In this document: piece by piece, positions 472 to 18,689 of the stretch
Position numbering within the stretch: the stretch's first letter is position 1
How the letters are laid out: the number at the start of each line of letters is the position of its first letter
Assembly: GCA_017532085.1 (NCBI GenBank)
Contig: JAFXJT010000021.1
Location: 1 to 61,546 of the forward strand
Origin: Oscillospiraceae bacterium
GTDB taxonomy: Bacteria > Bacillota > Clostridia > Oscillospirales > Ruminococcaceae
Reading direction: 5' to 3'
Length of the DNA stretch: 61,546 nt
Made by a program: the position numbers and the translations under genes
Notes under the pieces: model-generated
What the model was told of the DNA's origin: nothing
The model's database searches: none
What the model saw: only the letters and a program-made list of their open reading frames with translations

Positions 472-1797
472 TCACTCAGATTCCTCGGAATCAGTCATAT
501 TCTCCACCGTCAGCTTCTCTGCACAGATCCGACTGATCCAATTATCCTCATACTCCAATAATGTATAGCGCACACCTTCATGCACAACCGACGGTGTCTC
601 ACCACTCGTAGGAATGCGTCCCAGCAAATGCACTACATAAGCACTCATGGTATCGAAATCCTCTCCGCATTCCGCCTTCACGCCCAATGTCGGCAAAATA
701 TCTTCGGGATCCGCAGCGCCGTCAATTGAGAACACGCCCTCGGAAAGCTCTGTAAGCTCCGCTTCCTCGTCGTCATATTCATCCTGAATATTACCAACGA
801 TCTCCTCAAGCAGATCTTCCATAGTCACCATACCGGCCGTACCGCCATATTCATCCGAAACAATGGCGAGCTGGATTTTTTCACGACGCATTCGCTGAAA
901 CACATCTCTGCATTTGGCGGATTCAGGTACAAACACCACATCACGCATCAGCGGTAAGATCGGATGATCCTCTGCTTCTCCCATCATCGAAAGAAGGTCC
1001 TTCACAAGAACGACACCGACAATCGTATCAACGGTACCGTCATATACCGGAACGCGGGAAAATCCTTCTTCACGGATCACAGCTGCCACGCCAAACACCG
1101 TTTCATCCTTAGGCACAGCGCTCATATCCTTGCGATGCGTCATGACCTCTGATACCATCACATCATCGAAAGCAAAGATATTATTGATCATATCCCGCTG
1201 ACTTTCTTCGATGACTCCCGTTTCGTTGCCGGCATCCACCAGCATACGAATCTCCTCTTCGGTCACGATTTCGGTAGTCTCTGATGCCTTAATACCAAAA
1301 GGGAGACAAATCAGTGCAACACAACTTCTGACCAGCCAGATCAATGGCGCAAGACACAACATCAGCATTTGCACCGAACCCGATGCAAATCGTGCAAATT
1401 TCTCCGGTTGGCGGGATGCCAGACGCTTCGGCAGCAGATCGGTAAATGCAATCAATACTATTGCCGCAATCAACGATAGTATAATACCTGCCAGCAAACC
1501 CGACTCCCGGACAGGAATACGCCCGGCAAGCCGACTGCCGAAAATGCCAAAAGTCAGCATGCTGATCCAAACAGCTGACAGCACCCGATGCGTTGTAAAG
1601 CATAACAGTAATCGGCTCGGAACAGTCAGCAATCGATCCAGCTTTTGCCAGCGCCGATCCTCCTCGGCAAGCGTTTTGATCCGAGCATCATTGGCTTCGG
1701 TTAATGCAGCTTCACAAGCAGAAAACCATGCTCGCAATAAGCAGCATACAATGAGGAAGGCGATCAAAATCCACAATCGGTCACCATCGGTATCCAT
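472..1797 (-). CDS. CNNM-domain, CBS-pair membrane protein (HlyC/CorC family)
   Basis: A 441-residue integral membrane protein with the family order: N-terminal DUF21/CNNM transmembrane domain (about residues 1-185, with hydrophobic helices near 8-30, 65-85, 98-120 and 130-155), a CBS pair (about 205-330; segments with SRVPVYDG and [20 protein letters not shown]) and a C-terminal CorC/HlyC transporter-associated domain (about 345-430). CNNM/CorC proteins are linked to Mg2+ (or Co2+) efflux and homeostasis; 'hemolysin' is a legacy name. It is a single-gene unit with its own promoter, a palindromic leader and a terminator. The start is the ATG at 1797, behind a weak AAAGGA. The substrate is not readable from sequence. 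Confidence 0.88.
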
Positions 1798-1829
1798 GAA
1801 GAAAAAAATCCTTTCTATCTCAATAGTTT

Positions 1830-1847
1830 CTTACGAACCTTCGTAAG
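1830..1847. promoter_or_regulatory. Perfect 18-bp palindrome in the leader of the CNNM gene (candidate operator)
   Basis: CTTACGAA-CC-TTCGTAAG is a perfect 8-bp inverted repeat with a 2-bp centre. It begins 11 bp downstream of the -10 box, so a bound dimer would block initiation or early elongation. No T-run follows, so it is not a terminator. The regulator is not identifiable here. Confidence 0.55.
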
Positions 1848-1857
1848 CATGATTCTT

Positions 1858-1886
1858 ATTATAGTGCATTTATCGCAGAAAGTCAA
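1858..1886 (-). promoter_or_regulatory. Promoter of the CNNM/CBS gene
   Basis: TTGACT (complement of 1881-1886), 17-bp spacer and TATAAT (complement of 1858-1863) give a leader of about 55 nt that contains the palindrome at 1830-1847. Confidence 0.8.
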
Positions 1887-1982
1887 GCTGCCATCCCGAT
1901 TTTCAAAAGAAAACCATTGCGCAATCCATTTGGGACGCTTTCGGGGATTTTCCCACCGGATCAGCTAAACAGCCCTGCACTT

Positions 1983-3917
1983 TTAAGAAAGCTCAAACAT
2001 ACCCGTATATAGCTGATAATACTTTCCTTTCTGCGCAATCAGGGTGTTATGATTGCCTCGCTCAATGATCTCGCCCTTTTCCAGCACCATAATCGCCTGT
2101 GCATTGCGAATGGTTGATAATCTGTGTGCAATCACAAATACCGTCCTGCCTTCCATTAATTGATCCATACCTTTTTCAATCAGCGCTTCGGTACGAGTAT
2201 CAATCGAACTCGTGGCTTCATCCAAAATCAGCACCGGCGGATCGGCAATGGCAGCACGCGCTATGGCAAGCAGCTGCCGCTGACCCTGACTGAGATTGGC
2301 TCCATCGGCTGTCAGCATCGTATCATAGCCTTGCGGCAGATGTGTGATGAAATAATGTGCATTGGCACGCTTTGCTGCGGCAATGATATCTGCATCATCG
2401 GCGTCCAGTCTGCCATATTGGATATTTTCACGAACGGTGCCGGTGAATAAATGCGTATCCTGCAAAACCATGGCAAGAGAACGCCGAAGATCATCTTTCT
2501 TGATTTTATTGATATTAATGCCATCATAGCGGATTTTGCCGTCGGGTACATCATAAAATCGGTTAATGAGATTGGTGATGGTTGTTTTTCCGGCACCCGT
2601 AGAGCCTACAAAGGCAATTTTTTCTCCGTCATTGGCATACAGCGAAATATCCTTGAGCACGATTTTTTCCGGCGTATAGCCGAACACCACATGATCAAAT
2701 TCCACATTGCCTTTCACAGGCGTATAGGTAATCGTGCCATCCCGATGGGGATGCTTCCATGCCCAGAAACCGGTTCGCTCGGTGGTTTCCTCTATGGTAC
2801 CATCCGCAAGCTGACGCGCATTGATCAGCGTCACATAGCCGTCATCCACCTCTGGTTCCCCATCCAGCATACGGAAAATACGCTCTGCGCCGGCAAGAGA
2901 GGAAAGAATCGTGCCAAAGAGCTGTGCCACCTGTGTAATCGGTCTGGTAAAGGTACGGCTATATTCCAAAAAGGAAATCAATGCGCCAAGAGAAATCATG
3001 CCGTGAATGCCCATAATACCGCCGCAGATCGCAGTGACTGCATAGCAGATATGAGACAGATTGCCCATGATAGGCATCAGCATATTGGAAAAGGAATTGG
3101 CTTCGGTCGCAGCGTGACAAAGTGCTTCATTGCGCTGTGCGAATCCTTCCTTGGCCGCCTCCTCATGGCAAAACACCTTGACAACCTTCTGACCTTCGAT
3201 CATTTCTTCAATATAACCATTCACAGCACCGATTGCTTGCTGCTGCTGCTTGAAGAATTTTCCTGAACGTCCCGCCAATGCCCCGGCGATTCTCATTTGT
3301 ACGGCAAGGAACAAAAGCACCAGAAGCGTCAGCATCCAACTATAACGCAGCATCATGACAAAGGTGCCGGTAACGGTAACAATACCCACCAACAATTGAG
3401 AAAGCGTATTGGAAAGCATCTCCCGCAGCGTATCCACATCATTGGTATAGTGACTCATCAGCTCACCGTGCGTATGGGTATCGAAATAACGAATGGGCAA
3501 ACGCTCCATATGAGAAAACATCTGCTTACGAATCTGAAATAAAGTACCTGTGGAAACTTTCAGCAGCAGTCTTGCGTAAAGATAAGCACTCAAAGCGCCG
3601 CTGAGATAGATGACCGCCATAATCAGAACAGTGCGAATGAATCCGCCCATTTGCTCCAGTTCCATCAGATTCTTGCCGGAATCCGAAGCATATTCGTTAA
3701 TCATCGGACTGAGATAATCATCCACAATGACCTGCAGAAACGAAGTGCCTATGACCTGCGCCAATGTAGAAACCAGAATGAATACGGCAATCAGTACCAG
3801 CAGCAGCCGATATTCACTGAAATAGGAAAATAATCTGCGGATTGTTTTCCCCATATGTTCGGGTTTTTTTCCCGGGGCGAAATTCTGCGGACCCCTTCCG
3901 CCTGCCATACGAGCCAT
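1983..3917 (-). CDS. Heterodimeric ABC exporter, subunit with the intact catalytic site
   Basis: A 644-residue half-transporter: six-helix transmembrane domain (about 30-340) followed by an ATPase domain. It has Walker A GSTGAGKTT, signature LSQGQ, Walker B with the catalytic glutamate (LILDEATSSID) and the switch histidine (VIAHRLST). A stretch of about 40 residues between the two domains (near 355-400) is longer than in the partner. The start ATG overlaps the partner's stop codon (TAATG), so the two are translationally coupled. The family (LmrCD, BmrCD, TM287/288 type) exports drugs, lipids or peptides; the substrate is unknown. It is the third gene of the MarR operon. Confidence 0.92.
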   Translation of the reverse strand: MARMAGGRGPQNFAPGKKPEHMGKTIRRLFSYFSEYRLLLVLIAVFILVSTLAQVIGTSFLQVIVDDYLSPMINEYASDSGKNLMELEQMGGFIRTVLIMAVIYLSGALSAYLYARLLLKVSTGTLFQIRKQMFSHMERLPIRYFDTHTHGELMSHYTNDVDTLREMLSNTLSQLLVGIVTVTGTFVMMLRYSWMLTLLVLLFLAVQMRIAGALAGRSGKFFKQQQQAIGAVNGYIEEMIEGQKVVKVFCHEEAAKEGFAQRNEALCHAATEANSFSNMLMPIMGNLSHICYAVTAICGGIMGIHGMISLGALISFLEYSRTFTRPITQVAQLFGTILSSLAGAERIFRMLDGEPEVDDGYVTLINARQLADGTIEETTERTGFWAWKHPHRDGTITYTPVKGNVEFDHVVFGYTPEKIVLKDISLYANDGEKIAFVGSTGAGKTTITNLINRFYDVPDGKIRYDGININKIKKDDLRRSLAMVLQDTHLFTGTVRENIQYGRLDADDADIIAAAKRANAHYFITHLPQGYDTMLTADGANLSQGQRQLLAIARAAIADPPVLILDEATSSIDTRTEALIEKGMDQLMEGRTVFVIAHRLSTIRNAQAIMVLEKGEIIERGNHNTLIAQKGKYYQLYTGMFELS

Positions 3918-5653
3918 TATTCTACCCCCTTCTGCTGGCTTTCATATACCTCACGGTAGATGCTGTTGGTTTTCAAAAGATTTTCATGGGTATCAAAGCC
4001 ATTGCATTTTCCCTCATCCATAACCAGAATACGATCTGCCTCGGCAACAGAGGAAATTCTCTGGGCAATGATAAGCGTTGTAATACTGCCATGCCGTTTG
4101 CGCAGTGCATCTCGGATTTTACTGTCGGTGGCAGTATCTACGGCGCTGGTAGAATCATCCAAAATCATGATTTTCGGTTTTTTCAGCAGCGCACGGGCAA
4201 TACAAAGCCGCTGCTTTTGACCGCCGGATACATTGGTACCGCCCTGTCCCAGATCGGTGTCATAGCCATCGGGGAAAGAGGTAATGAACTCATGTGCCTG
4301 AGCCGCCTCGCAGGCTGCCACAATCTCTTCATCAGTAGCATCGGGATTTCCCCAGCGCAGATTATTGCGAATGCTGCCGGAAAAAAGCACATTCTTCTGC
4401 AGCACCATTGCTACCTGATTGCGCAGCGTATCCAGCTTGTAATCCCGTACATCATGACCGCCGACCAGCACACGACCCTCCGTAACATCATATAAGCGAG
4501 GAATCAATTGTACCAGCGTGCTTTTTGCCGATCCGGTACCACCGATGATACCAATGGTCTCACCGGAATGAATCGTCAGATTGATGTGCTCTAAATTCAG
4601 ATTGTCGCTGTCTTTGTTGTAAGAGAAGGATACATTTTCAAATACAATGGAACCATCTGCACATTCCAATGCAGGATCTGCATCGTGATCGTTAATATCC
4701 AGAGTTTCATCCAGTACCTCACAGATACGACGGATGGATGCCAGCGAGATAATCAGACTGATGAAAATCATGGTGATCATCATTAGAGACATAAGAATCT
4801 GACCGATATAGGAAATGAAACTGGAAAGCTCACCAATATCGAAGGTACCTTGGATTGCCATGCGGCCTCCGAACCAAAGGATCGCAAGAATACAGCCATA
4901 CATGGAAATCTGCATAAGGGGGCTGTTCAGAAGCACTATTTTCTCTGCGGCAACCTGTGTTTTGCGTACTTCATCAGCACTGGCTTCAAATTTTTCTATT
5001 TCATGGCGTTCTCGCACAAACGCCTTGACCACGCGAATTGCAATCAGATTTTCCTGCAATGCGCCGTTCATGCGATCATATCGTTCCAGCATGCTGTGAA
5101 ACCGCGGATATGCATTGATCGCAATGAGAAACAACATCGTAGCAAGAAACGGAATGACAACAGCAAAAACCAATGCCATTTTCGCATTGATCGTTATGGC
5201 CATGATCAATGCGCCGATCAGCATGGAGGGAGATCGTACCATCATGCGGATACACATCATAAAAGTGTTCTGTACATGATTAACATCCGTAGTTAAACGT
5301 GTGATCAAGGAGGCTGTGGAATAGTGATCAATATTAGAGAACGAGAAATCCTGCACACGATCGAACAGCTTGGCACGCAGATTTTTACCGAATCCGATGC
5401 CCGCCTTAGCAGAAAATCTGCCGCCCAGCGCACCGCAGATCAGCGACAAAATCGAAGCGATAATCATAATGATACCGATTCTTACGGTATAGGCAGTATC
5501 CTGTGCCTGGATTCCGTTTGTGACCATTTTTGCCATCAGAAAGGGAATCAAAATTTCAAGTCCCGCTTCCCCCAACATCACAAGAGGTGTATAAATGGCG
5601 TATTTCTTATACTCTCCCAGACAGGAAAGCAGCTTTTTTATCATTGACAGCAT
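3917..5653 (-). CDS. Heterodimeric ABC exporter, subunit with the degenerate ATP site
   Basis: A 578-residue half-transporter with a six-helix membrane domain (about 15-305) and an ATPase domain. Three ATP-site residues deviate: Walker A reads GGTGSAKST, the catalytic glutamate after Walker B is aspartate (LDDSTSAVD), and the switch histidine is glutamine (IIAQRIS). The signature VSGGQ is intact, so it completes the good site of the partner. This asymmetry is known from heterodimers such as TM287/288. The ATG lies 6 nt after GGAGG and overlaps the MarR stop (TGATG). Confidence 0.92.
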   Translation of the reverse strand: MLSMIKKLLSCLGEYKKYAIYTPLVMLGEAGLEILIPFLMAKMVTNGIQAQDTAYTVRIGIIMIIASILSLICGALGGRFSAKAGIGFGKNLRAKLFDRVQDFSFSNIDHYSTASLITRLTTDVNHVQNTFMMCIRMMVRSPSMLIGALIMAITINAKMALVFAVVIPFLATMLFLIAINAYPRFHSMLERYDRMNGALQENLIAIRVVKAFVRERHEIEKFEASADEVRKTQVAAEKIVLLNSPLMQISMYGCILAILWFGGRMAIQGTFDIGELSSFISYIGQILMSLMMITMIFISLIISLASIRRICEVLDETLDINDHDADPALECADGSIVFENVSFSYNKDSDNLNLEHINLTIHSGETIGIIGGTGSAKSTLVQLIPRLYDVTEGRVLVGGHDVRDYKLDTLRNQVAMVLQKNVLFSGSIRNNLRWGNPDATDEEIVAACEAAQAHEFITSFPDGYDTDLGQGGTNVSGGQKQRLCIARALLKKPKIMILDDSTSAVDTATDSKIRDALRKRHGSITTLIIAQRISSVAEADRILVMDEGKCNGFDTHENLLKTNSIYREVYESQQKGVE

Positions 5654-6231
5654 CAGATTCCTCCTTTCTGTTCATCAGAATGGTGTACAAGAGCAGTACA
5701 GACCGCATTCTCCTGTGCAATTTCTTCGGCAAGTGTTTTCAGTGCAAGTGGGGTAACGTCCATCGGTTCTCTTCCCAAAGCACGTTCCATTTGTTCTGTC
5801 ATACGACGCAAATAGTCCGTAAGTTGTCGAAGCTCCGCTTCGGAAAAGCCATCAAAAACCGATGCATCAAACCGATCAATGACATCGCAGCAGCTTTGCA
5901 AAACAGCCTTTCCTGCTTCCGTCAGCTCCAGCTGCTTGCAGCGCTGATTATCGGGACAGACCGCTGCTGTCAGATATCCCAATTGCTTCAGCGGTTTGAT
6001 TGTCATCGCTACGGCAGCAGGTGTAATATGCAGCCGTTCTGCCACATCAATTTGCTTACAGCCCGGATGCTTCAAAATATCATCCAGCAGATGAACCTGC
6101 GTTCCGTTGAGCGGTGCAGTATGCTCTACCTGCCGGATATAGATTCTCCGCAAAAAATGCAGCTTGGCAAGCCGACCAAACAGCATACGGTATTGTTCCG
6201 ACGCATCCGGATTCCCCATCGGTTTTGTCAT
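5653..6231 (-). CDS. MarR-family regulator of the ABC exporter operon
   Basis: A winged-helix protein of 192 residues. The helix-turn-helix region is around residues 55-80 (QIDVAERLHITPAAVAMTIK), followed by the wing and a C-terminal dimerisation helix. An upstream in-frame ATG at 6246 is part of the ribosome-binding site (GGGAGG), so the ATG at 6231 is preferred. It is the first gene of a coupled three-gene operon and probably represses itself and the exporter through the palindrome at 6253-6273. MarR proteins often respond to the compounds their exporters remove; the ligand is unknown. Confidence 0.88.
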   Translation of the reverse strand: MTKPMGNPDASEQYRMLFGRLAKLHFLRRIYIRQVEHTAPLNGTQVHLLDDILKHPGCKQIDVAERLHITPAAVAMTIKPLKQLGYLTAAVCPDNQRCKQLELTEAGKAVLQSCCDVIDRFDASVFDGFSEAELRQLTDYLRRMTEQMERALGREPMDVTPLALKTLAEEIAQENAVCTALVHHSDEQKGGI

Positions 6232-6252
6232 GCAGCTCCCTCCCATCAGTTC

Positions 6253-6369: not shown

Positions 6370-6398
6370 TTGACAAACTCGACCGATTGTGATATCAT
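6370..6398 (+). promoter_or_regulatory. Promoter of the cobalamin-riboswitch operon
   Basis: TTGACA (6370-6375), 17-bp spacer, TATCAT (6393-6398). Transcription would start near 6405 and give a leader of about 395 nt before the first gene. Confidence 0.82.
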
Positions 6399-6429
6399 TG
6401 CTGTATCAGTGATTATATCCTGATCCTCT

Positions 6430-6620
6430 TAAAAATGACAAATAACGAAGCAATCCGGCAAACAGGATCCGCTGCATTGCTTTCTATCATGCGCAGAGCG
6501 GCGTTGCTTGCAGCAACCAATGTGAGGGAAGTTCGGTGAAAATCCGTCGCAACAGCCATTACCGTGACAGTCGGAATACTCACCGCATTCTGCGACGGGA
6601 GTCGGAATCAAGCCTTTTGT
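6430..6620 (+). ncRNA. Cobalamin (B12) riboswitch aptamer
   Basis: The core matches the cobalamin class: a hairpin GTTGC/GCAAC (6503-6517), GAGGGAAGTTC then the hallmark GGTGAAAATCC (6535-6545), a junction with CAGCC and CCGTGAC (6553-6568), and a B12-box-like AGTCGGAATCAAGCC (6600-6614). Limits are approximate. It lies between a strong promoter and a terminator and precedes transporter genes, so it probably represses the operon when cobalamin is plentiful. Confidence 0.82.
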
Positions 6621-6733
6621 ATGCTTGAACGACACATTTTTGGGTATGAAAAGTGCAACCGTTTGTTGATCCTATGGATAAGGGCGCAGTGTCGATTCAT
6701 GACCGAATGCCCCGATCCGATCAGCAGGCTGTT

Positions 6734-6778
6734 GCGCTTTTTTCTGTCGTGATACACGATAGGAAAAGGCGCTTTTTT
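6734..6778 (+). terminator. Expression-platform terminator of the cobalamin riboswitch
   Basis: An 18-bp stem (6734-6751 with 6755-6772, three-base loop ATA, several G-T pairs) is followed by TTTTTT (6773-6778). It ends only 7 nt before the ribosome-binding site of the first gene, so it acts before any gene of the operon. The antiterminator partner was not worked out. Confidence 0.82.
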
Positions 6779-6799
6779 ATTGGAAAAGGAGGGGATATT

Positions 6800-7015
6800 A
6801 TGGCATTGCACAGCAAAGCGGAAGCAATTCTTTGGTTGCAGCAAATGCAGGCACAATTGCTGGCAAAAGGCATTCAACGATATCCGAAGCGCAGTGATTT
6901 TACTGCCGAGCAAGTAGTTGCCATCAAAGCACATCTCGGGCCGTGGCCTCGTGCACTGGAGGCGGCTGCCTTAAAACCGCTGTGCAAAACAGAGCCTGCT
7001 CCGAAAGAACCATGA
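6800..7015 (+). CDS. Small (71-residue) protein at the head of the corrinoid operon
   Basis: Start ATG with AAAGGAGGGG 6 nt upstream. The protein is soluble, with no signal or membrane segment. A helical N-terminus (about 5-25) is followed by a segment (about 25-60; RYPKRSDFTAEQ then LGPWPRALEAA) that resembles the short DNA-binding repeat associated with homing endonucleases (GxW..AL.AAGL pattern). That resemblance is by eye and weak. It is the first reading frame after the riboswitch terminator and so should be co-regulated with the transporter. A small nucleic-acid-binding role is possible; the function is unknown. Confidence 0.68.
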   Translation: MALHSKAEAILWLQQMQAQLLAKGIQRYPKRSDFTAEQVVAIKAHLGPWPRALEAAALKPLCKTEPAPKEP

Positions 7016-7099
7016 AAAGCGTATTTTGCGCAAACAAGAATCCATACCAACAAAGATGGCAAAACACATTGTCAACCAAATGAAAAAGGAGAAAAAATT

Positions 7100-7966
7100 A
7101 TGAAAAAACAAATTCTGACTACAATGCTTTTGAGTACGGTGCTGACCGCATGCACGATTCCCTGCTATGCTTTCGCTGCCGAAACAATGGATGTAGCGGT
7201 AACCATTGCCGATGCCGATGGCAATCTGGTACTGACACAGGCGGATGTCGTGGTCACGGATGCCGATCGGGATGGCGTGCTGACCATTGGGGATGCGTTA
7301 TATGCTGCACATGAGGCCTATTATGAAGGCGGTGCAAAAAGCGGTTATGCCGCCTCCATGACCGATTACGGTCTGAGCCTGGATATGCTCTGGGGCAATA
7401 CAAACGGCGGCTCCCATGGATACTATCGAAATCACGCATCGGCTATGAGCCTTTTGGATCCTATTGCAGAGGGCGACCGGATTACAGCGTTTTCCTATAC
7501 GGATTTGGCAGGTTGGTCGGATCAATATTGTTATTTTGATCCCGATGCGGTATCTGCTGCCGAAGGAGAAGAGATTACGCTGACTTTGCTGGGCGCAGGA
7601 TATGATGAGGCTTGGAATCCCATTACTGCGCCTGTTGCCGATGCATATATTGTACTGGACGGTGTGCGCACTTCCTATCGGACAGATGCAGACGGAATGG
7701 CAACATTGCCTTTGACCGCCGCAGGAACACATATCATCAGTGCAGTATCCGATACAGCGATTCTGGTGCCGCCGGTATGCGTCGCAGCAGTCAACGGTTC
7801 CGATATCGGCACCTCCACAACAGCACCTGTAACCACCGCAGCAACGACATCTGCGGATGGAGTGGATACCGGTGACAGCGATTTGTCCATTTGGCTGCTT
7901 GCCGCTATGACACTGATGGGCATTGTCGCCATCGGATGCAACAAACGAATCGGATGCAGAAAATGA
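7100..7966 (+). CDS. Secreted, C-terminally anchored protein of the corrinoid operon, DUF4430-like region
   Basis: 288 residues. The N-terminal signal sequence could be cleaved after AFA (about residue 26); a lipobox-like LTAC at 15-18 is an alternative. Two aspartate-rich loops (near 37-48 and 53-64; DADRDGVLTIGD fits a 12-residue EF-hand-type loop) may bind Ca2+. The central part (about 75-140; YGLSLDMLWG, then GYYRNHAS and EGDRITAFSY) echoes the DUF4430/transcobalamin beta-domain pattern of the next protein. An Ig-like stretch (about 155-220), a Thr/Ala-rich linker and a C-terminal membrane helix with basic tail (about 262-288) follow. There is no LPXTG. Context suggests a surface role in corrinoid capture. 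Confidence 0.8.
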   Translation: MKKQILTTMLLSTVLTACTIPCYAFAAETMDVAVTIADADGNLVLTQADVVVTDADRDGVLTIGDALYAAHEAYYEGGAKSGYAASMTDYGLSLDMLWGNTNGGSHGYYRNHASAMSLLDPIAEGDRITAFSYTDLAGWSDQYCYFDPDAVSAAEGEEITLTLLGAGYDEAWNPITAPVADAYIVLDGVRTSYRTDADGMATLPLTAAGTHIISAVSDTAILVPPVCVAAVNGSDIGTSTTAPVTTAATTSADGVDTGDSDLSIWLLAAMTLMGIVAIGCNKRIGCRK

Positions 7967-9744
7967 GAAGAACATGGCGCTTTTCGTTATGGGTGCTGAC
8001 GATCGTCTGCTGTTTTCGGATGCTGTTTTTGCCTTGTGCTGCATCGCTTTCGCACACAGCGGTTTATGACACTATTTTGCAGGCACAGCTGACATCAGCC
8101 GGTGCCGAGGATGTCCAAACATGGATTACCGATACATTAGCAGCTCGTGCAGGCAGCGGCTCGCCGGAATGGTATGTGATGGCACTTGCGCAGTCGGGAA
8201 AAACGTATGATATGACAGCCTATACAGCCGCGCTGCATACTGTCATGGACAATCAGACCGGCAATGCGGTACAGCGGCAGCGGTGTGCACTGGCAATGCT
8301 GGCAGCTGCTCCCGATTGCAATGCCGCTGCCATGGAACGTCTGCTTGCAGAAACGCTTGGCAAACAGGGCATCATGAGTGAAATTTTCGGGTTGCATCTC
8401 ATGCAGCTTGATGTGCCGTCGCCGCACAGCAAGGAATCGGTTGTGCAGATGCTTTGTGCACGTCAGCTTGCAGATGGCGGCTGGGCGCTTTCAGGCAATA
8501 TCGGCGATGTGGATGTGACTGCCATGACCATACAGGCATTGGCGCCTCATCGCAAGATACAGGCCGTGGAGGATGCCATTGCAAAGGGATTGTCTTTTTT
8601 ATCGGCAAAGCAGCTGGATGACGGCAGCTATGTCAGCTATGGCGTATCCAATCCGGAAAGCGGTGCGCAGGTTTGGATTGCACTGGCCGCTTTGGGGATC
8701 GATTCTCAAACAGATCCACGTTTTTGCAAAAACGGCAATACAATTGCAGATGCGATTTTGCGGTTTCAATGTGAATCGGGCGGATTTGCCCATGTTGCAA
8801 ACGGCAAAGAAAATGCCAATGCCACCGTACAGGTATTTCTGGCGCTGACAGCTCAGCGGCTGCTGGAAACAGAACAACGCAGCTTGTATGCCTTTTTGCG
8901 AAACGATTCTCCTGCTGCAAGCACATCCGCAGCATCTTCGACAGCAGCGCAAACAAGCACTTCGGCAACAACGCATACGACGAATTCTGCAGCAGCGACT
9001 GCAGGATTGCAAAGTGACAGCACCTCACAATCCATGCCAAACGGCAGCGGCAGTACATGGATCGGCAGCCATACCTCTGCTGTTGATATCACTGCAGCAG
9101 AACAGCTTGCGCCGAATCACACTGCAGGATCGGGAAACTCCACTGTCCGCAAAATGCCGCTGCTGCGATGGCTCCTTACTGCTGCGATCCTTTTGACCGC
9201 AGCTCTGATTTGCGTGGTGATGTGGCGAAAGGGACGCAGGCATCCCAATCATATCCTGCTTGTGTTGGGATGCGGAGCTGTCATGATCGCTGGGGTATGG
9301 TGGATCCGATTGGAAACACCGGAACAATACTATGGAACACAACCAGAAAAAAGCAATGTAATCGGTACCGTAACGTACAGCATTCGCTGTGATCAACTGC
9401 CAAACAATCATACTCATGCACATCTGCCGGAAGACGGCATTTTGCTCCCGCCGACGGTACTTGCTCTTGGGGAGGGAGAAACCATACTGGATTTGCTATA
9501 TGAAGTCACAAAAACACAGAAGCTTCAGTTGGAAGTCAACGGCTTGCAGGACGAACAAGCCTATATCCGCAGTATTGCAAATTTATATGAGTTTGATTAT
9601 GGCGATTTGTCCGGCTGGATGTATCGGGTCAACGGCGAATCTCCATCCATCGGCTGCGGTCAATACGTGCTTTCGGATGGCGATGTCGTAGAATGGATTT
9701 ACTCGCTTTCTATGGGAGAGGATCTCTTTGACTCAGAACAGTAA
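7963..9744 (+). CDS. Transcobalamin-like surface protein: alpha/alpha-barrel, membrane hairpin, DUF4430 beta-domain
   Basis: 593 residues from the ATG at 7963, which overlaps the preceding stop (ATGA). The order is signal sequence (1-28); alpha-helical domain (about 30-310) with terpene-cyclase/prenyltransferase-type repeats (QLADGGWALSG, QLDDGSYVSYG, QCESGGFAH); Ser/Thr/Ala linker (about 310-395); two hydrophobic helices (about 400-420 and 428-447) around a short basic loop WRKGRRHPNH; and a C-terminal DUF4430 domain (about 465-593; LDLLYEV, AYIRSIANLYEFDYGDLSGW, MYRVNG, SDGDVVEW). An alpha/alpha-barrel plus DUF4430 is the plan of animal transcobalamin and intrinsic factor. With a B12 riboswitch upstream and an ECF transporter downstream, corrinoid binding is the best inference. 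The GGW-type repeats do not indicate terpene synthesis here. Confidence 0.88.
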   Translation: MRRTWRFSLWVLTIVCCFRMLFLPCAASLSHTAVYDTILQAQLTSAGAEDVQTWITDTLAARAGSGSPEWYVMALAQSGKTYDMTAYTAALHTVMDNQTGNAVQRQRCALAMLAAAPDCNAAAMERLLAETLGKQGIMSEIFGLHLMQLDVPSPHSKESVVQMLCARQLADGGWALSGNIGDVDVTAMTIQALAPHRKIQAVEDAIAKGLSFLSAKQLDDGSYVSYGVSNPESGAQVWIALAALGIDSQTDPRFCKNGNTIADAILRFQCESGGFAHVANGKENANATVQVFLALTAQRLLETEQRSLYAFLRNDSPAASTSAASSTAAQTSTSATTHTTNSAAATAGLQSDSTSQSMPNGSGSTWIGSHTSAVDITAAEQLAPNHTAGSGNSTVRKMPLLRWLLTAAILLTAALICVVMWRKGRRHPNHILLVLGCGAVMIAGVWWIRLETPEQYYGTQPEKSNVIGTVTYSIRCDQLPNNHTHAHLPEDGILLPPTVLALGEGETILDLLYEVTKTQKLQLEVNGLQDEQAYIRSIANLYEFDYGDLSGWMYRVNGESPSIGCGQYVLSDGDVVEWIYSLSMGEDLFDSEQ

Positions 9745-9756
9745 AGGAGGGAAATG

Positions 9757-10629
9757 ATGCGCCGCTTTGAACAAGGACATCCAGTGCCTGTTGCAGCACA
9801 TCTGCTGTGCACAGCGTTGATCGCCATGTTCAGTCGTGATCCATTGCTGCTGGGGCTTGCTCTTGTCGGTGCATTGGGCTGCTATTGGCAGCAGAAAATG
9901 GATCATAAACTGCATGGTTTTGCAGTGCTGTTATTTTTCGGCTTTACGCTGCTGAATCCTTTATGGAATCAGAGCGGTACCACCGTACTTTTCATTCTCA
10001 ATGATCGCCCGATTACGCTGGAAGCGTTGTGCTACGGTGCGGTATCTGCGCTGATGCTGCTTGCAGTGCTGTATTGGTTCGCTGTATTCTCTCGTTGGAT
10101 GACCGCCGATCGCTTGTTGTATCTTTGCCGCAGACTTTCTCCGCAGCTTGCATTGACTGTCTCCATGGGAATACGGCAGGCATCCTTGCTGACTGCACAA
10201 CTGCAGCGCATTCGAGAAGCACAGATGGTGATGGGCTTGCAGCAAGAGCAAAATCTCATTGATCGGATGCGCAGCGGATTACGCAGTTTTTCCGCAACTC
10301 TTTCTTGGGGATTGGAAAACGGCATTGTGACTGCTGACAGTATGAGCGCACGCGGTTATGGAATTGGCAAACGAAGCAGCTTCTCCATATTTGTATTTCA
10401 TCGCAAGGATGCACTGCATCTGCTCAGTGTCATAGCGCTGACAGCATTGGTGCTGCTTGGGATATCGAAAGGCGCTTTGCTGGATACCTATTACCCGAAC
10501 ATACAATCACCTCCTTGGAATGGATATTCATGGCTTTGCTATTGTGCATATGGATTGCTTTCATGCTATCCTATGCTTCACAACGGAAAGGAGGCGCTGC
10601 AATGGCGATACTTACAGTCAAAGATTTGA
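9757..10629 (+). CDS. ECF transporter transmembrane component (EcfT/CbiQ family)
   Basis: 290 residues. Hydrophobic helices occupy the N-terminal half and the C-terminus. The central cytoplasmic region carries the coupling motifs expected of EcfT: RIREAQMVMG (about 147-156) and the Ala-Arg-Gly motif in SMSARGYG (about 198-205). Two ATGs (9754, 9757) follow AAAGGAGG; the second has the better 6-nt spacing. It couples the ATPase (next gene) to the S component. The gene begins 12 nt after the transcobalamin-like gene and overlaps the ATPase gene by 28 bp. Confidence 0.88.
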   Translation: MRRFEQGHPVPVAAHLLCTALIAMFSRDPLLLGLALVGALGCYWQQKMDHKLHGFAVLLFFGFTLLNPLWNQSGTTVLFILNDRPITLEALCYGAVSALMLLAVLYWFAVFSRWMTADRLLYLCRRLSPQLALTVSMGIRQASLLTAQLQRIREAQMVMGLQQEQNLIDRMRSGLRSFSATLSWGLENGIVTADSMSARGYGIGKRSSFSIFVFHRKDALHLLSVIALTALVLLGISKGALLDTYYPNIQSPPWNGYSWLCYCAYGLLSCYPMLHNGKEALQWRYLQSKI

Positions 10630-12260
10630 GCTTTTGGTATCCCGAACAAAAGAAACCTGCCATTGAAAAGGTCTCTTTTTCCGTTGAGGCGGGAGCATTT
10701 GTCACACTCTGCGGTACAACCGGCTGCGGTAAAAGTACACTGCTGCGTCTTTGCAAGCGTGAGCTGATGCCTCATGGCACGCAAAACGGCTCTGTTTGTT
10801 TTCAAGGCAAGCCGCTTTCTGCAACGGATGCTCGTACTGCAGCTTCTGATATTGGTTTTGTCGCACAACAGCCTGAACAGCAAATTGTTACGGATAAAGT
10901 GTGGCATGAGCTTGCATTTGGACTGGAAAATCTCGGTCTGCCTCAGCAGGAAATCCGCAGACGCGTGGCGGAAATGGCATCCTATTTTGGCATTACCGAT
11001 TGGTTTGAACGAGATACAGCCTCTCTTTCAGGCGGTCAAAAACAGCTTTTGAATCTGGCAGCAGTCATGATTATGCAGCCAAAGCTTCTATTGCTGGATG
11101 AACCAACGGCACAACTGGATCCGATTGCAGCCGGCGAATTTATCGCAACGCTGCATCAGCTCAATCGAGAGCTGTCACTGACCATTCTCATCACCGAACA
11201 TCGACTGGAAGAGGTTGTGCCGCTTTCCGATGCACTGATGGTCATGGAGCATGGAACACTCACCGCCTATGACTCACCGCGCAACGTACTTTCGGCAATG
11301 CCTTCCACCTCTCCGCTGCTGGGTGGTATGCCTGCTGCAGCCCGATTATATCATGCTTTAGGCGCAGCAACGGCACACTGTCCTTTGACGCAAAGAGAAG
11401 GCAGAGCCTATTTGCAGGAGCACTGCACACTGCCATCACGTCTGCCTGTCATGCCGCCGCAATCTCCCTCTGCATCAGCACCTGCTCTGGAGTGGAACAG
11501 TGTGTATCAACGATACCATCGCAATGCACCGGATGTGCTCTCTGATTTTTCGCTGTGCATTTATGAAGGTGAATGCTTTTGTCTGTTAGGCGGAAACGGT
11601 GCAGGAAAATCCACAGCATTGAAAGCGGCTGCCGGTCTGTTAAAGCCCTATGCAGGCAGCATTCGTGTGTTCGGAAAAAAGCAATCGGATTATACAAACG
11701 GTGCCTTATATCATCATTGTCTTGCAATGCTGCCGCAAAATGTACAGACACTCTTCGTGAAGAACACCGTCAAAGAGGAGCTTGCGGAAATCGGCACAGC
11801 GGCAGAAGCCTTTCCCTTTGCACTGACACAATGGTATGATCGTCATCCCTATGATGTCAGCGGCGGAGAGCAGCAGCTGATCGCACTTGCCAAAATTATG
11901 GGCCAAAAGCCGCGAATTCTTTTGCTGGATGAACCGACAAAAGGTCTGGATGCCGATGCCAAAGCTCGATTGGGTCAAGTGCTGCGTGCCCTGCAGCAGC
12001 AAGGCGTGACCATCGTCATCGTGACTCACGACATTGCCTTTTCTGCCGTGTATGCACAGCGATGCGGACTGCTGTTTCGTGGAAATTTGATTGCAGCGGA
12101 ATCTCCGGATCGTTTTTTTGCAGGCAATCATTTTTATACCACCGCCGCTCATCGGATGAGCCGAGGACTGTGTGAAAACGCCATCACTGTGGAACAGCTT
12201 GCCCAATACGGCAGACAGCGTATGCAGCAGGAGGATGACAATGCGAATGATAGAACATAA
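10602..12260 (+). CDS. ECF transporter ATPase with two fused ABC domains (EcfA-A')
   Basis: 552 residues from the ATG at 10602 (AAAGGAGG 8 nt upstream). Two ABC domains lie in tandem. The first (about 3-230) has GTTGCGKST, signature LSGGQ, Walker B LLLLDEPTAQLD and switch EHRLEE. A variable linker (about 235-300) follows. The second (about 300-530) has GGNGAGKST, signature VSGGE, Walker B ILLLDEPTKGLD and switch THD. Both sites keep the catalytic glutamate and histidine. Group II ECF systems normally use two separate ATPases; fusions are known. It powers the T/S pair encoded on either side. Confidence 0.92.
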   Translation: MAILTVKDLSFWYPEQKKPAIEKVSFSVEAGAFVTLCGTTGCGKSTLLRLCKRELMPHGTQNGSVCFQGKPLSATDARTAASDIGFVAQQPEQQIVTDKVWHELAFGLENLGLPQQEIRRRVAEMASYFGITDWFERDTASLSGGQKQLLNLAAVMIMQPKLLLLDEPTAQLDPIAAGEFIATLHQLNRELSLTILITEHRLEEVVPLSDALMVMEHGTLTAYDSPRNVLSAMPSTSPLLGGMPAAARLYHALGAATAHCPLTQREGRAYLQEHCTLPSRLPVMPPQSPSASAPALEWNSVYQRYHRNAPDVLSDFSLCIYEGECFCLLGGNGAGKSTALKAAAGLLKPYAGSIRVFGKKQSDYTNGALYHHCLAMLPQNVQTLFVKNTVKEELAEIGTAAEAFPFALTQWYDRHPYDVSGGEQQLIALAKIMGQKPRILLLDEPTKGLDADAKARLGQVLRALQQQGVTIVIVTHDIAFSAVYAQRCGLLFRGNLIAAESPDRFFAGNHFYTTAAHRMSRGLCENAITVEQLAQYGRQRMQQEDDNANDRT

Positions 12261-12924
12261 AAAAACTCGGATTGTGCTTTCATGGATACTGCCGCTTCTG
12301 ATCATGCCGCCTGTGGTATATCTCAGTACAAAACTGGATAGCCGATATACAGCAGGAATGATTCTTTTGATGGTCGTCTTGACTTTACTGCTGTTTCTTT
12401 CCGGAATCAATCGCAAAGAAATCGGCACACGCAGAATGGTACTTTCTGCAATATTTATCGGTATGGCAATCGCCGGACGGGCACTGCCAATTCTCAAGCC
12501 CGTAACAGCATTGACGATCCTTGCAGCAATGTATCTTGGCAAAGAAGCCGGTTTTCTTGTGGGAGCATTCTCCGCAGTGCTTTCCAATTTTTTCTTTGGA
12601 CAAGGCCCTTGGACGCCCTTTCAGATGCTTGCATGGGGATTGATCGGCTGGTTGGCGGGCATTCTTGCAATCCCGCTGCAAACCCATCGATGGCTGATGC
12701 TGGGATACGGTGCAATCACAGGCTTGGGATACTCGATGCTGATGGATATCTGGACTGTATTATGGCATTATGAAGGCTTTTCGGCAGCGTATTATGGTAC
12801 AGTGCTCATCACGGCAATGCCGCATACATTGTTATATGTCGGCGGTAATGTATTATTTTTGGCAGTGCTCGGTAAACCGATCGGAGATAAGCTGCTGCGA
12901 ATCCAAAAAAAATATGGCATATAG
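12241..12924 (+). CDS. ECF transporter substrate-binding (S) component, probably for cobalamin or a corrinoid
   Basis: A very hydrophobic protein of 227 residues with about six helices. Segment 70-145 carries the pattern of the cobalamin-type S components (CbrT/CblT families) as I recall them: a glycine-rich helix with AGRALP, KPVTALTIL, GKEAGFLVGAFSA, then SNFFFGQGPWTPFQMLAWG. The ATG at 12241 lies 6 nt after AGGAGG; the ATG at 12235 is too close to that site. It overlaps the ATPase gene by 20 bp. The riboswitch supports cobalamin, cobinamide or dimethylbenzimidazole as substrate, which sequence alone cannot separate. Confidence 0.85.
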   Translation: MRMIEHKKTRIVLSWILPLLIMPPVVYLSTKLDSRYTAGMILLMVVLTLLLFLSGINRKEIGTRRMVLSAIFIGMAIAGRALPILKPVTALTILAAMYLGKEAGFLVGAFSAVLSNFFFGQGPWTPFQMLAWGLIGWLAGILAIPLQTHRWLMLGYGAITGLGYSMLMDIWTVLWHYEGFSAAYYGTVLITAMPHTLLYVGGNVLFLAVLGKPIGDKLLRIQKKYGI

Positions 12925-12960
12925 GATGACAGAAGGGTACACTTGTGTCATCCTTTTCTT
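12924..12960 (+). terminator. Terminator of the corrinoid uptake operon
   Basis: A perfect 8-bp stem GGATGACA/TGTCATCC (12924-12931, 12946-12953) is followed by TTTTCTT. It starts on the last base of the S-component stop codon. Confidence 0.85.
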
Positions 12961-12987
12961 ATAAAAGGAAAGAGAAACCAAGAAAAG

Positions 12988-13016
12988 TTGAAAAAAAACA
13001 GGATCTGTGCTATAAT
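12988..13016 (+). promoter_or_regulatory. Promoter of the ABC-F gene
   Basis: TTGAAA (12988-12993), 17-bp spacer, TATAAT (13011-13016). It gives a short leader of about 35 nt. Confidence 0.8.
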
Positions 13017-13056
13017 GGATTCTATACAATAAAATATAGGAGAAGCATCCGCTGCT

Positions 13057-14610
13057 ATGAGTATTTTAACCGTTGAAAATGTGACCCACGGCTTTGGTGC
13101 CCGTCAGATTCTGAACAATGCATCCTTCCGGCTGCTCAAGGGTGAACATATCGGATTGGTAGGAGCAAATGGTGAGGGAAAATCTACTTTTTTGAATATC
13201 ATCACCGGAAAACTTGCGCCCGATGAAGGCAAAATCGAATGGTGCAGACGTATCACCACAGGATATCTGGATCAATACAGCACCCTTCAAAAGGGTAAAA
13301 CGATCTATGATGTGCTGCGGGATGCCTTTGGATATCTGGAAGAATTGGAACAGGAAATGCTTGCGCTCTATGATACAATGGCAGATTGCTCCGAAGAAGC
13401 GCTGGCAGAGGCAATGGAGGAAGTCGGCGAGATCCAGAATCTGTTGGATTACAGCGGCTATTACACCATTGATGCCAAGATCTCGGAATATGCAAACGGT
13501 CTGGGCTTAGGCGAAATCGGTCTGGATCGGGATGTTTCAGAACTTTCAGGCGGTCAGCGTGCCAAAGTCCTGCTTGCTAAGGTGCTGTTGGAAAATCCTA
13601 TGATTCTGATTCTCGATGAGCCAACCAATTTCCTGGATGAGAATCATATCGCATGGCTGAAGGATTTCTTGCAAAACTATGAAAATGCATTCATTTTAGT
13701 ATCCCATGATATTCCTTTTCTCAATGATGTGGTCAACGTGATTTACCATGTGGAACATGCAGTGCTGACTCGCTATGCAGGAGATTACGATAATTTTCTG
13801 CGGATGTATGAGCTGAAAAAGCGCCAGCTGGAGCAGGCATATGAAAAACAGCAAAAGGAAATTGCCGACCTTGAGGATTTTATTGCTCGCAACAAAGCAA
13901 GAGTTGCCACAACCAATATGGCAAAATCCCGACAGAAAAAGCTGGATAAGATGGATAAGATTACTTTGGGTGCTCGAAAAGCAGAGCTGTCTTTCGGTTT
14001 TACTCCCGCCAGAACGCCCGGCCGTGTGGTAATCGAATGCCGCGATCTGGTGCTTGGCTATGATGAGCCGCTGACACGTCCTGTATCTCTAAAACTGGAA
14101 TGCGGACAGAAAATTGCAATTAAAGGCGTAAATGGCTTAGGAAAATCCACACTGTTGAAAACACTGCTCAAACTGATTCCGCCAATCAGCGGAACCGTAG
14201 AGCATGATCAGTTCCTTGAGCCGGGCTATTTTGAACAGGAAGAAATTGCTACTTCGGAAACAGCTTTGCAAACCATCTGGGATGCTTATCCTGCTATGAG
14301 CAATGGAGAAGTCCGGGCTGCTTTGGCAAGATGCGGACTGACCACTGAGCATATCACCTCACAGATGCGGGTGCTTTCCGGTGGAGAAAACGCCAAGGTG
14401 CGGCTATGCCGTCTGATGCTTAAGAGCATCAATCTGCTGGTGCTGGATGAGCCAACCAATCACCTGGATGTGGAAGCCAAAGATGAACTGAAGCGTGCAA
14501 TCAAGGAATTCAAAGGCACAGTGCTGCTGGTAAGCCACGAACCGGAGTTTTATTATGATGTAGCCGATGAGGTATGGAATCTGGAGGATTGGACAACCAA
14601 AATTGTCTGA
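13057..14610 (+). CDS. ABC-F family ATPase (YkpA/YbiT-like)
   Basis: A soluble 517-residue protein with two ABC domains and no membrane segment. Domain 1 has GANGEGKST, signature LSGGQ and LILDEPTNFLD. The inter-domain linker (about 245-310) is highly charged and helical. Domain 2 has GVNGLGKST, signature LSGGE and LVLDEPTNHLD. ABC-F proteins act on the ribosome, in translation regulation or antibiotic protection. Overall order and length fit the housekeeping YkpA/YbiT branch better than resistance types, but this is by eye. The AGGAG at 13038 is 14 nt from the ATG, unusually far. Confidence 0.9.
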   Translation: MSILTVENVTHGFGARQILNNASFRLLKGEHIGLVGANGEGKSTFLNIITGKLAPDEGKIEWCRRITTGYLDQYSTLQKGKTIYDVLRDAFGYLEELEQEMLALYDTMADCSEEALAEAMEEVGEIQNLLDYSGYYTIDAKISEYANGLGLGEIGLDRDVSELSGGQRAKVLLAKVLLENPMILILDEPTNFLDENHIAWLKDFLQNYENAFILVSHDIPFLNDVVNVIYHVEHAVLTRYAGDYDNFLRMYELKKRQLEQAYEKQQKEIADLEDFIARNKARVATTNMAKSRQKKLDKMDKITLGARKAELSFGFTPARTPGRVVIECRDLVLGYDEPLTRPVSLKLECGQKIAIKGVNGLGKSTLLKTLLKLIPPISGTVEHDQFLEPGYFEQEEIATSETALQTIWDAYPAMSNGEVRAALARCGLTTEHITSQMRVLSGGENAKVRLCRLMLKSINLLVLDEPTNHLDVEAKDELKRAIKEFKGTVLLVSHEPEFYYDVADEVWNLEDWTTKIV

Positions 14611-14700
14611 GCACGCCTCATCCCCCATTCTCAATCGCACAAGAATCCAAGAATCTTGCAGGATCTATTCGGTAAGGAACGCTATGTTCGTGTCATTGCC

Positions 14701-14750
14701 CTCGGTGACAATCATGCGAATTGATATCACTCCCATGACGGCTCACCGAG
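14701..14750. other. Unassigned structured stretch between two convergent genes
   Basis: CTCGGTGA (14701-14708) pairs with TCACCGAG (14743-14750), and TCATG (14712-14716) with CATGA (14734-14738) inside it, around the palindrome TGATATCA. No T-run follows and no gene is recognised in 14611-14780. It may be a decayed gene end, a small RNA or a transcript-end structure. Confidence 0.35.
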
Positions 14751-14779
14751 ATCAAACACTTGGGTGAATGATATAGAAA

Positions 14780-14815
14780 CAACCCGTGAGGAATGCTTCC
14801 TCACGGGTTGTTTTG
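14780..14815. terminator. Bidirectional terminator between the ABC-F and symporter genes
   Basis: A perfect 14-bp stem CAACCCGTGAGGAA/TTCCTCACGGGTTG (14780-14793, 14797-14810) with loop TGC. T-rich sequence follows on both strands, and the two flanking genes converge. Confidence 0.88.
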
Positions 14816-14817
14816 CG

Positions 14818-16263
14818 CTATGAAGTCTCTTTTTTCCGTCTGGTGTTCGCTTTTTTCGGTGGAGTAAGCGATTGAAAATACTCTTTTGTTTCCGAAGCCA
14901 CAACACCGGAAAGTACAAGCAGTGCCGTAATATTCGGCAGCGCCATCAGACCATTGCAGATATCTGCCAGATTCCATACTGCCTCAACAGTCAGATAAGG
15001 TCCAATAAAGACCGCTGCAATATACAGCCACCGATAGCAGCGGGTGGCGGTTTTGTTGGCGCCGCTCAAATACGAAAGACAACGCTCAGAATAATAATTC
15101 CATCCCAAAATGGTAGTGAACGCAAAAAACACAAGACAAATCATCAGAATCAAAGCGGAAATCGTTTCCGGAAAAGGCAAGCCATACTGGAATGCACTGG
15201 TAGTAATCTCTACTCCCTGCAGCGAAGGGTCACGCTCCAGACAGCCGGACATAACAATGGCAAGTCCTGTCATGGTGCAAACAATAATGGTATCAATAAA
15301 AGTGCCGGTCATGGTGATTAAGCCCTGTCTTGCAGGCTCTGAGGTCTTGGCCGCTGCTGCCGCAATCGGTGCGGAGCCGAGACCTGCTTCATTGGAAAAA
15401 ATGCCTCTTGCCACACCCGATTGCATAGAGGAAAATACCGCACCCAGTGCACCGCCTGCAACCGCACGCAAACCGAATGCACTCTCGAAGATCGTGCGGA
15501 ATGCACCGGGGATTTCTTTGATATGCAAACCAATCATCAGCAGGCAACAGCATACATATACTACCACCATGGCGGGAACAAGGATCTCGGAAACAGTCGC
15601 AATCCGCTTGATGCCGCCAATGATAATCAGTGCCACAAGCAGCGTAATGACCGCACCAACGATCATTTGCACATAAGTATATTCCATACCAAACAACGAA
15701 ACCGTATGAAGTCGTTGCGGATCAAAGAAATTGGTTGCGGCTTCTGTAATGCCATTGATTTGGGTAATGGTACCGATTACCATGATGCCGGCAAGCAATG
15801 CAAATACCGCAAAGAGCTTTGCAAGCCATTTCCACCGTTTGCCCATGCCTTTCTCAATATAGTAAAACGGACCGCCCAGCATTTGTCCTTGGGCATCGGG
15901 GGTACGATATTTGACTGCCAGCAGTCCTTCTGCATATTTTGTTGCCATGCCGAACAAAGCGGCAACTTCCATCCAAAACAAAGCGCCCGGTCCACCGGCA
16001 GCAATGGCTGTGGCAACGCCTACGATATTTCCTGTTCCGATGGTTGCAGAAAGTGCTGTGCATAATGCAGCAAAGGCAGAAACCTCTCCTTGCCCTTGTT
16101 TTTCCGGCGAGACCATATAACGTAAAGCAAGCCCAAGCTTATGAAATTGCACACCTTTCAGCCGAATGGTTAACCAGATACCACAAAATAAAATCAGAAC
16201 AATCAGCGGAACGCCCCAGATGATGCTGTCAATCTCGCGAATGACACGATTGAAGATATCCAC
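14818..16263 (-). CDS. Sodium:alanine/glycine symporter (AGCS family)
   Basis: 481 residues with about 10-11 membrane helices. AGCS hallmarks are FAALCTALSATIGTGNIVGVA (residues 63-83) and GGPGALFWMEVAALFGMATKYAEG just after it, with GGPFYYIE further on. These proteins co-import alanine or glycine with Na+. The start is GTG at 16263, five nt after AGGAGG. It is a single gene with its own promoter and shared terminator. The exact amino acid is not readable. Confidence 0.93.
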   Translation of the reverse strand: MDIFNRVIREIDSIIWGVPLIVLILFCGIWLTIRLKGVQFHKLGLALRYMVSPEKQGQGEVSAFAALCTALSATIGTGNIVGVATAIAAGGPGALFWMEVAALFGMATKYAEGLLAVKYRTPDAQGQMLGGPFYYIEKGMGKRWKWLAKLFAVFALLAGIMVIGTITQINGITEAATNFFDPQRLHTVSLFGMEYTYVQMIVGAVITLLVALIIIGGIKRIATVSEILVPAMVVVYVCCCLLMIGLHIKEIPGAFRTIFESAFGLRAVAGGALGAVFSSMQSGVARGIFSNEAGLGSAPIAAAAAKTSEPARQGLITMTGTFIDTIIVCTMTGLAIVMSGCLERDPSLQGVEITTSAFQYGLPFPETISALILMICLVFFAFTTILGWNYYSERCLSYLSGANKTATRCYRWLYIAAVFIGPYLTVEAVWNLADICNGLMALPNITALLVLSGVVASETKEYFQSLTPPKKANTRRKKETS

Positions 16264-16299
16264 ATTTGCCTCCTGTTAATTTTTTCACATACTTTTTGT

Positions 16300-16328
16300 A
16301 TTATACCATCCTCCTGCAAATTCGTCAA
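16300..16328 (-). promoter_or_regulatory. Promoter of the AGCS symporter gene
   Basis: TTGACG (complement of 16323-16328), 17-bp spacer, TATAAT (complement of 16300-16305). Confidence 0.8.
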
Positions 16329-16344
16329 GAGCATTGCATGAAAG

Positions 16345-16391
16345 ATAAAAAAGGACAGACGCTCCGTCAGGCGGAAACCGTTCTGTCCTTT
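16345..16391 (-). terminator. Terminator of the copA-like gene
   Basis: AAAGGACAGA (16350-16359) pairs with TCTGTCCTTT (16382-16391), with an inner CCG/CGG extension. On the minus strand a T-run follows (complement of 16346-16352). It lies 8 nt after the stop of the gene at 16399. Confidence 0.82.
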
Positions 16392-16398
16392 GTATGTT

Positions 16399-18621: not shown

Positions 18622-18651
18622 ATGATCCCTCATTTCGTTTCAGATGGTCAT

Positions 18652-18680: not shown

Positions 18681-18689
18681 GGTGAACGG

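Follow-up and report, generated by a model that had tools for sequence, protein, structure and literature searches.

Can proteins on the surface of a bacterium capture vitamin B12 (cobalamin) and hand it to an importer of the energy-coupling factor (ECF) type? The question is raised by an operon of an Oscillospiraceae bacterium (GenBank assembly GCA_017532085.1), which sets two surface proteins beside an ECF importer behind a cobalamin riboswitch. The operon lies in contig JAFXJT010000021.1, one of the contigs (C80) of a 1.98-Mb draft genome that is 83% complete, and the window is this whole stretch of 61,546 nt. We read the operon as a B12-repressed system for the import of cobalamin or other corrinoids, in which surface proteins of transcobalamin type feed a dedicated ECF importer, and give this reading a probability of about 0.83. 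In bacteria, transcobalamin-like domains fused to toroids were reported by Burroughs et al. (2007; PMC1796856), who found them encoded with CbiO/CbiQ genes and another, paralogous surface protein, in hosts usually without key B12 synthesis enzymes, and predicted that these proteins scavenge B12. The operon is a member of the kind predicted there, and the idea put forward in an earlier note on this DNA, that such toroid proteins serve B12 uptake, is therefore not new.

The riboswitch leader and the ECF importer

The operon forms a single apparent transcription unit (6370-12960) consisting of a promoter, an AdoCbl-II aptamer, a leader terminator, six plus-strand genes and a closing hairpin (Table 1), and every element that the earlier note had listed was found in its place. 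The aptamer is the sole match in the window above an Rfam gathering score. No second RF01689 match was found elsewhere in the genome (150 of 237 candidates scored), and RF00174 gave none in this genome. The leader terminator, with a folding energy of -30.4 kcal/mol (z -4.9), has the longest stem among the 11 terminator-like sites in the region (7.4 +/- 2.6 in shuffles). The riboswitch likely acts in the OFF direction, ending transcription at this terminator. Promoter-like sites number 11 in the region versus 7.7 +/- 3.2 in shuffles, a scan total not above chance, and such sites are also present on the minus strand at 6307-6279 and 6441-6412 (12/12 and 11/12 consensus). The closing hairpin is not among the sites listed by the terminator scan of the region.

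Table 1. Coordinates in the window of the features of the operon.
Feature	Position	Strand	Basis
Sigma-70-type promoter, TTGACA-17-TATCAT, TG before second hexamer	6370-6398	+	11/12 consensus positions
AdoCbl-II cobalamin riboswitch aptamer	6508-6588	+	RF01689, 40.2 bits versus gathering cut-off 36.5, E 4.1e-6
Intrinsic leader terminator (expression platform)	6734-6772	+	18-pair stem, then T6
71-residue small protein, HNH_repeat-like	6800-7015	+	PF18780, E 5.3e-5
288-residue surface protein	7100-7966	+	Signal-peptide-like N terminus, predicted transcobalamin beta-like domain, Ig-like domain, transmembrane anchor
593-residue membrane-tethered transcobalamin-like protein	7963-9744	+	PF14478 and predicted structure
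EcfT transmembrane coupling subunit, 290 residues	9757-10629	+	Family profile versus EcfT chains
Fused EcfA-A' ATPase, 552 residues	10602-12260	+	Two ABC_tran stretches, TIGR04520
CbrT-like S component, 227 residues	12241-12924	+	6FNP chain A match
Terminator-like hairpin closing the operon	about 12924-12954	+	-18.5 kcal/mol, then TTTTCTT

A candidate antiterminator in the leader was rejected. Positions 6548-6557 in the aptamer core are complementary over ten pairs to 6727-6736 at the start of the terminator, a match that none of 200 shuffles equalled. The core pattern is present at 19 of the other loci compared and absent from three; of the 19, L034 alone gave a comparable result (3/200 shuffles), and the pairing is not used here.

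EcfT, two ATPase domains and an S component within one operon make up a dedicated ECF module, in which the window EcfT scores below the Pfam cut-off for CbiQ (18.2 bits, cut-off 25). CbiQ was matched by nine of ten members of the EcfT family at E up to 0.01, and the family profile matched the EcfT chains of solved ECF complexes at E 2e-9. The fused EcfA-A' scores 322.9 bits against TIGR04520, over the cut-off of 315. In a PDB search with the single S-component sequence, 6FNP chain A was matched at E 2.1e-6, the other listed chain being a protease (E 1.3). With a 17-row profile the same chain (CbrT) reached E 6.1e-17, followed by 4hzu_S (5.1e-4) and the riboflavin protein 3p5n (0.059), and thus no non-corrinoid family ranks ahead of CbrT, the type that the earlier note had named. 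From its length, chain A is probably the S component of 6FNP, the EcfT of that entry being a different sequence. 6FNP is the ECF-CbrT complex, shown to transport both cobalamin and cobinamide (PMC5997447).

The CbiQ/CbiO-type annotation of such genes would suggest cobalt or nickel import instead, as would the weak match of EcfT to CbiQ and the matches of EcfA to cbiO models. We rejected this explanation, since the S component matches CbrT and CbiM/NikM-type chains are absent from its PDB matches. The extracellular proteins encoded alongside are of transcobalamin type, and the corrin synthesis marker CbiC gave no match in the genome, and a metal importer is therefore very improbable.

Predicted folds of the two surface proteins

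The 593-residue protein matches PF14478 (DUF4430) at E 1e-17, its 64.8 bits lying well over the cut-off of 23.8, which bears out the domain that the earlier note had assigned to it. From its signal-peptide-like N terminus the protein continues with an alpha/alpha toroid (31-304), a disordered linker, a transmembrane hairpin (400-447) and DUF4430 (466-585); signal peptides were judged from hydropathy and the model rather than with a dedicated predictor. The structure model has a pLDDT (predicted local distance difference test) of 85.4. When it was compared with the PDB using Foldseek, ranks 1-7 were intrinsic factor, transcobalamin and haptocorrin, with both domains covered over 587-617 alignment columns. 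In the model, DUF4430 adopts the transcobalamin-type beta-grasp, with hairpin-insert strands 523-526 and 534-538 following helix 508-518. The two transmembrane segments of the hairpin lie between toroid and DUF4430 in 119 of 120 aligned rows, the window included, and the two domains are predicted to stand on the outer face, joined via this hairpin.

Searched against the PDB, the profile of the 593-residue family returned terpene cyclases along with a handful of other chains, drimenyl-diphosphate synthase and squalene-hopene cyclase being nearest to the toroid. The toroid might accordingly be a relative of the class II terpene cyclases with an enzymatic role outside the cell. The acid motif of these enzymes is DXDD. 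It is not kept here: residues 182-185 of the window protein read D-V-D-V, and in the alignment 107 of 120 rows have V at 185, where the four commonest residues together account for 119 rows and do not include D. Together with the fusion of the toroid to DUF4430 inside a riboswitch-led operon, this leaves an enzyme of this kind hardly credible.

For the 288-residue surface protein, to which the earlier note had given no fold, the first domain (about 28-140) is predicted to fold like the beta domain of transcobalamin. In its model, strands 83-88 and 91-97 follow helices 63-74 and 78-82 and form the beta-hairpin insert of a transcobalamin-type beta-grasp; an Ig-like domain (142-235) and a C-terminal transmembrane anchor (261-284) complete the layout. 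PF14478 found no match on this protein at E up to 1, nor on any of 102 aligned members of its family at E up to 0.01, and the family profile gave no match in the PDB. Profile-profile comparison of the 288- and 593-residue families revealed nothing beyond 17 columns, and the link between the two families is therefore drawn from predicted fold.

Conservation of the linkage in Bacillota

DUF4430 was found in 46 of 60 relatives, the window genome being additional, and in 27 of the 29 same-genus genomes searched. At 21 of 27 same-genus loci, the surface protein, the toroid-DUF4430 protein, EcfT, the fused EcfA and the S component are all present, and because these five genes are kept together the arrangement is not a product of chance. 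The other six are loci cut by contig ends (L037, L042, L050 and L057) and two uncut ones (L043 and L045). A B12 aptamer lies upstream on the same strand at 41 of the 56 DUF4430 places in the relatives (one place is under the Pfam cut-off), and at none of the 56 does an aptamer lie on the wrong side or strand. Aptamers score above Rfam's own cut-off at 25 of 52 loci. Another 13 were detected with model R1, and are less independent since that model was built from 16 sequences of the same set (the window and 15 loci).

Two of these places look different. At L045 (5897-7837), there is a toroid-DUF4430 gene with the operon's other genes unmatched within 12 kb and a B12 aptamer undetected. At L075 (5861-9404), where a B12 aptamer was also not found, a short DUF4430 protein is encoded beside a 1023-residue GHL10 and amidase_3 protein and may have a different role.

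Beyond these relatives, we went to other classes of the same phylum and took, in order of handle number, the first 18 genomes with a match, one cluster from each. An RF00174 aptamer is present upstream on the same strand at 16 of the 18 clusters, with 17 aptamers in total. RF00174 has 58 matches over the roughly 48 Mb of the 18 genomes (for 11 of them, the best 81 candidates were scored), a density at which chance would put fewer than one aptamer into the 135 kb searched. An earlier pass with 1.5-kb flanks had detected a riboswitch at 2 of 20 loci; such flanks were considered too short where the first genes of an operon are long, and longer stretches were therefore taken. An S component is near 15 of the 18 clusters, as is EcfT near 15. 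The two clusters without an aptamer are L130, where a contig end cuts the stretch, and L135, whose genome (G109) is 100% complete and has no RF00174 match; the DUF4430 gene of L135 possibly serves another ligand or answers to another regulator. With DUF4430 in 62 of 199 genomes sampled from the phylum, the linkage to riboswitches suggests a widespread route of B12 uptake in Bacillota.

Among the best 80 of 87 loci from named records, found using the 593-residue protein alone, an S component is encoded at 64, EcfT at 63 and either at 69, with no wrong-strand matches. An aptamer was detected at 41 of the 80 using a profile made from the sequences of 23 Rfam hits, in all cases on the same strand and at 40 upstream. 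Genome-wide, and unplaced relative to the loci, RF00174 was matched in 27 and RF01689 in 11 of 31 named-record genomes (25 and 4 over cut-off). The co-occurrence of DUF4430 genes with CbrT-like S components, for which the earlier note had proposed a survey, thus recurs across the phylum.

A second, two-gene form is found at 11 of the 25 loci L059-L083 (L060, L061, L067, L068, L069, L073, L074, L076, L078, L079 and L080). Here the DUF4430 gene directly precedes the gene for an S component of a second family, the A4 type, and EcfT is unmatched; an aptamer was detected at eight of the 11, and the two DUF4430 proteins scanned have 138 and 161 residues. The A4 profile was built from seven of the S proteins, none with a Pfam match at E up to 0.01, and the remaining four were found with it. 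Its sole PDB match is CbrT (E 4.3e-17), and its alignment with the S family of the window type has a probability of 97.7%. As the A4 proteins are CbrT-like, a surface DUF4430 protein can occur alongside a CbrT-like S component whether or not a dedicated ECF module is encoded with them.

Gene order also bears on whether the surface proteins feed the importer at all, for they might be co-regulated with it and store or sense B12, or strip it from host carriers, while the ECF complex takes free B12. Purified ECF-CbrT transports cobalamin in proteoliposomes, and the passages of that paper on this transport do not mention a surface protein (PMC5997447). At two of the 21 complete genus loci, moreover, the ECF genes lie on the opposite strand to the surface-protein genes, in convergent orientation (L032, 2279-5986; L033, 7302-11010; one R1 aptamer match each). 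At the other 19, however, the two sets are co-linear, and the two-gene form leaves nothing between the DUF4430 gene and the gene for the CbrT-like S component. We consider surface proteins that do not feed the importer to be improbable.

Proposed capture and hand-over of corrinoids

We propose that, when adenosylcobalamin is scarce, transcription would read through the leader terminator and the two anchored transcobalamin-type proteins would be made together with their dedicated ECF importer. The 288-residue protein, anchored at its C terminus, would capture corrinoids at the surface. The toroid and DUF4430 domain of the 593-residue protein would close on the ligand beside the membrane, as in transcobalamin, and the protein would pass it to the CbrT-like S component; EcfT and EcfA-A' would then power the transport cycle of this subunit with ATP. 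The first step (the riboswitch) and the last (ATP-driven import) belong to families whose behaviour is known; we infer capture and hand-over, and with them the corrinoid ligand, the order of hand-over and direct contact with the S component, from fold and gene order. Corrinoid uptake by the surface proteins and ECF complex, as the earlier note had it, is supported by the match to the transcobalamin domains, by the family of the S component and by the recurrent linkage. Of the three outcomes that the earlier note had named as refuting it, two were put to the test, a lack of any structural match to the transcobalamin domains and an S component from a non-corrinoid family, and neither arose; as to the third, a leader without a B12 response, the aptamer scores above the Rfam cut-off. 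The chances are about even that the transporter is fed by a binding protein in one specific way, with a transcobalamin-type clamp on a single membrane hairpin as the external donor, helped by a second catcher of transcobalamin-beta type. If true, this would be an ECF importer having an external binding protein.

A narrower possibility, overlapping with the import of cobalamin or other corrinoids, is that the system is corrinoid-specific and mainly takes up cobinamide or the other cobamides of gut neighbours, not complete cobalamin. CbrT carries cobinamide besides cobalamin (PMC5997447), haptocorrin binds analogues (PMC5599065) and salvage of B12 vitamers has been suggested for some gut B12 auxotrophs (PMC6593275). 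Against an incomplete corrinoid as ligand, CbiC was unmatched, this being the sole biosynthesis marker searched (cobU, cobS and cobT were outside the search). We regard such a preference as possible, if unlikely.

Several results weigh against import fed by surface proteins of transcobalamin type. PF01122, to which the earlier note had looked for the toroid, gave no match to the window 593-residue protein at E up to 1, and is absent among the 25 of 72 families listed for 35 aligned sequences of this family. Transcobalamin is missing from the PDB list of the family profile, by which the toroid is nearer class II terpene cyclases, and in one fold search of the model toroid-only enzymes score level with intrinsic factor. 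Root-mean-square deviations of 10.5-18.4 Å across Foldseek ranks 1-7 indicate a placement of the domains in the model unlike that of the solved carriers. DUF4430 is unmatched in 137 of the 199 phylum genomes. Fifteen of the 56 DUF4430 places in relatives have no detected aptamer, of which L036, L039, L050 and L063 are cut close upstream and 11 are not, and model R1 detected an aptamer at just 4 of 30 named loci, though the wider profile gave 41 of 80. As the genome is incomplete, absences from it are provisional, and the search for B12 transporters did not extend to the BtuM and BacA types.

Within this 83% complete genome, BtuF-type proteins (PF01497) were unmatched, as was CbiC, and the operon, which also holds the only PF14478 match found, is the only B12 uptake route seen. 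The genome encodes a MetH of 782 residues with B12-binding domains.

Compared with the systems of Burroughs et al. (2007; PMC1796856), the operon is alike in its secreted fusion of toroid and beta-grasp, its second surface protein, its CbiO/CbiQ genes and the lack of a corrin synthesis marker. It differs in the riboswitch, the S component and the transmembrane hairpin between toroid and beta-grasp, which go unmentioned in that paper's account of these systems, and in a 288-residue protein that escapes PF14478; the 2007 paper also predates the CbrT structure paper (2018). The counted riboswitch link, the CbrT-like S component, the hairpin, the hidden beta domain of the 288-residue protein and the two-gene form are new relative to that account. 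Experimental characterisation of such operons was not found in openly licensed papers. Now that B12 riboswitches and CbrT-like S components have been linked to it in many Bacillota, this operon type makes a concrete candidate for expression and assay.

CbrT is a group II S component, working with a module that other S components use as well. In the window, EcfT, the fused ATPase and the S component instead share an operon with two surface proteins; the S component is related to that of ECF-CbrT from Lactobacillus delbrueckii, and the ECF module is of the same type (PMC5997447; 6FNP). BtuG of Bacteroides, encoded in a B12 transport locus with BtuB, is likewise a surface protein that takes B12 before the transporter; it is a beta-propeller lipoprotein on the outer membrane, unrelated in fold and envelope (PMC6143338). 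With the animal carriers intrinsic factor, transcobalamin and haptocorrin, the 593-residue protein shares, in its model, the two-domain arrangement of alpha/alpha toroid and beta domain. In contrast to them it is bacterial, is tethered by a membrane hairpin between its domains, lacks a PF01122 match and would feed an ABC-type importer rather than a receptor. Among the carriers themselves, the cobalt-coordinating histidine of transcobalamin is mostly absent in intrinsic factor and haptocorrin (PMC11107200). Burroughs et al. (2007; PMC1796856) proposed gene transfer to animals from Gram-positive bacteria; the animal carriers may descend from a bacterial relative of these proteins, and the operon type offers a bacterial counterpart for testing that proposal.

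The gene for the 71-residue protein sits between the riboswitch and the surface-protein gene. The protein scores 23.9 bits against PF18780 (HNH_repeat), under the curated cut-off of 26, and has a tblastn match at 14 of 52 related loci; one of these is L079, from another family, and there too the gene lies behind a B12 riboswitch. On contig C76 there are six B12-binding matches, two above the Pfam cut-off. Several cluster at 12000-23000 (L092), where the two proteins scanned belong to the radical SAM group, have weak B12-binding domains and are neighbours of a GH3-family (PF03321) protein. In the window, the operon has ordinary neighbours: it is preceded by a gene for a CNNM/CBS protein and by a pair of ABC exporter genes accompanied by a MarR regulator (472-6246), and followed by genes for an ABC-F-like protein, a sodium:alanine symporter and a heavy-metal P-type ATPase (13057-18633).

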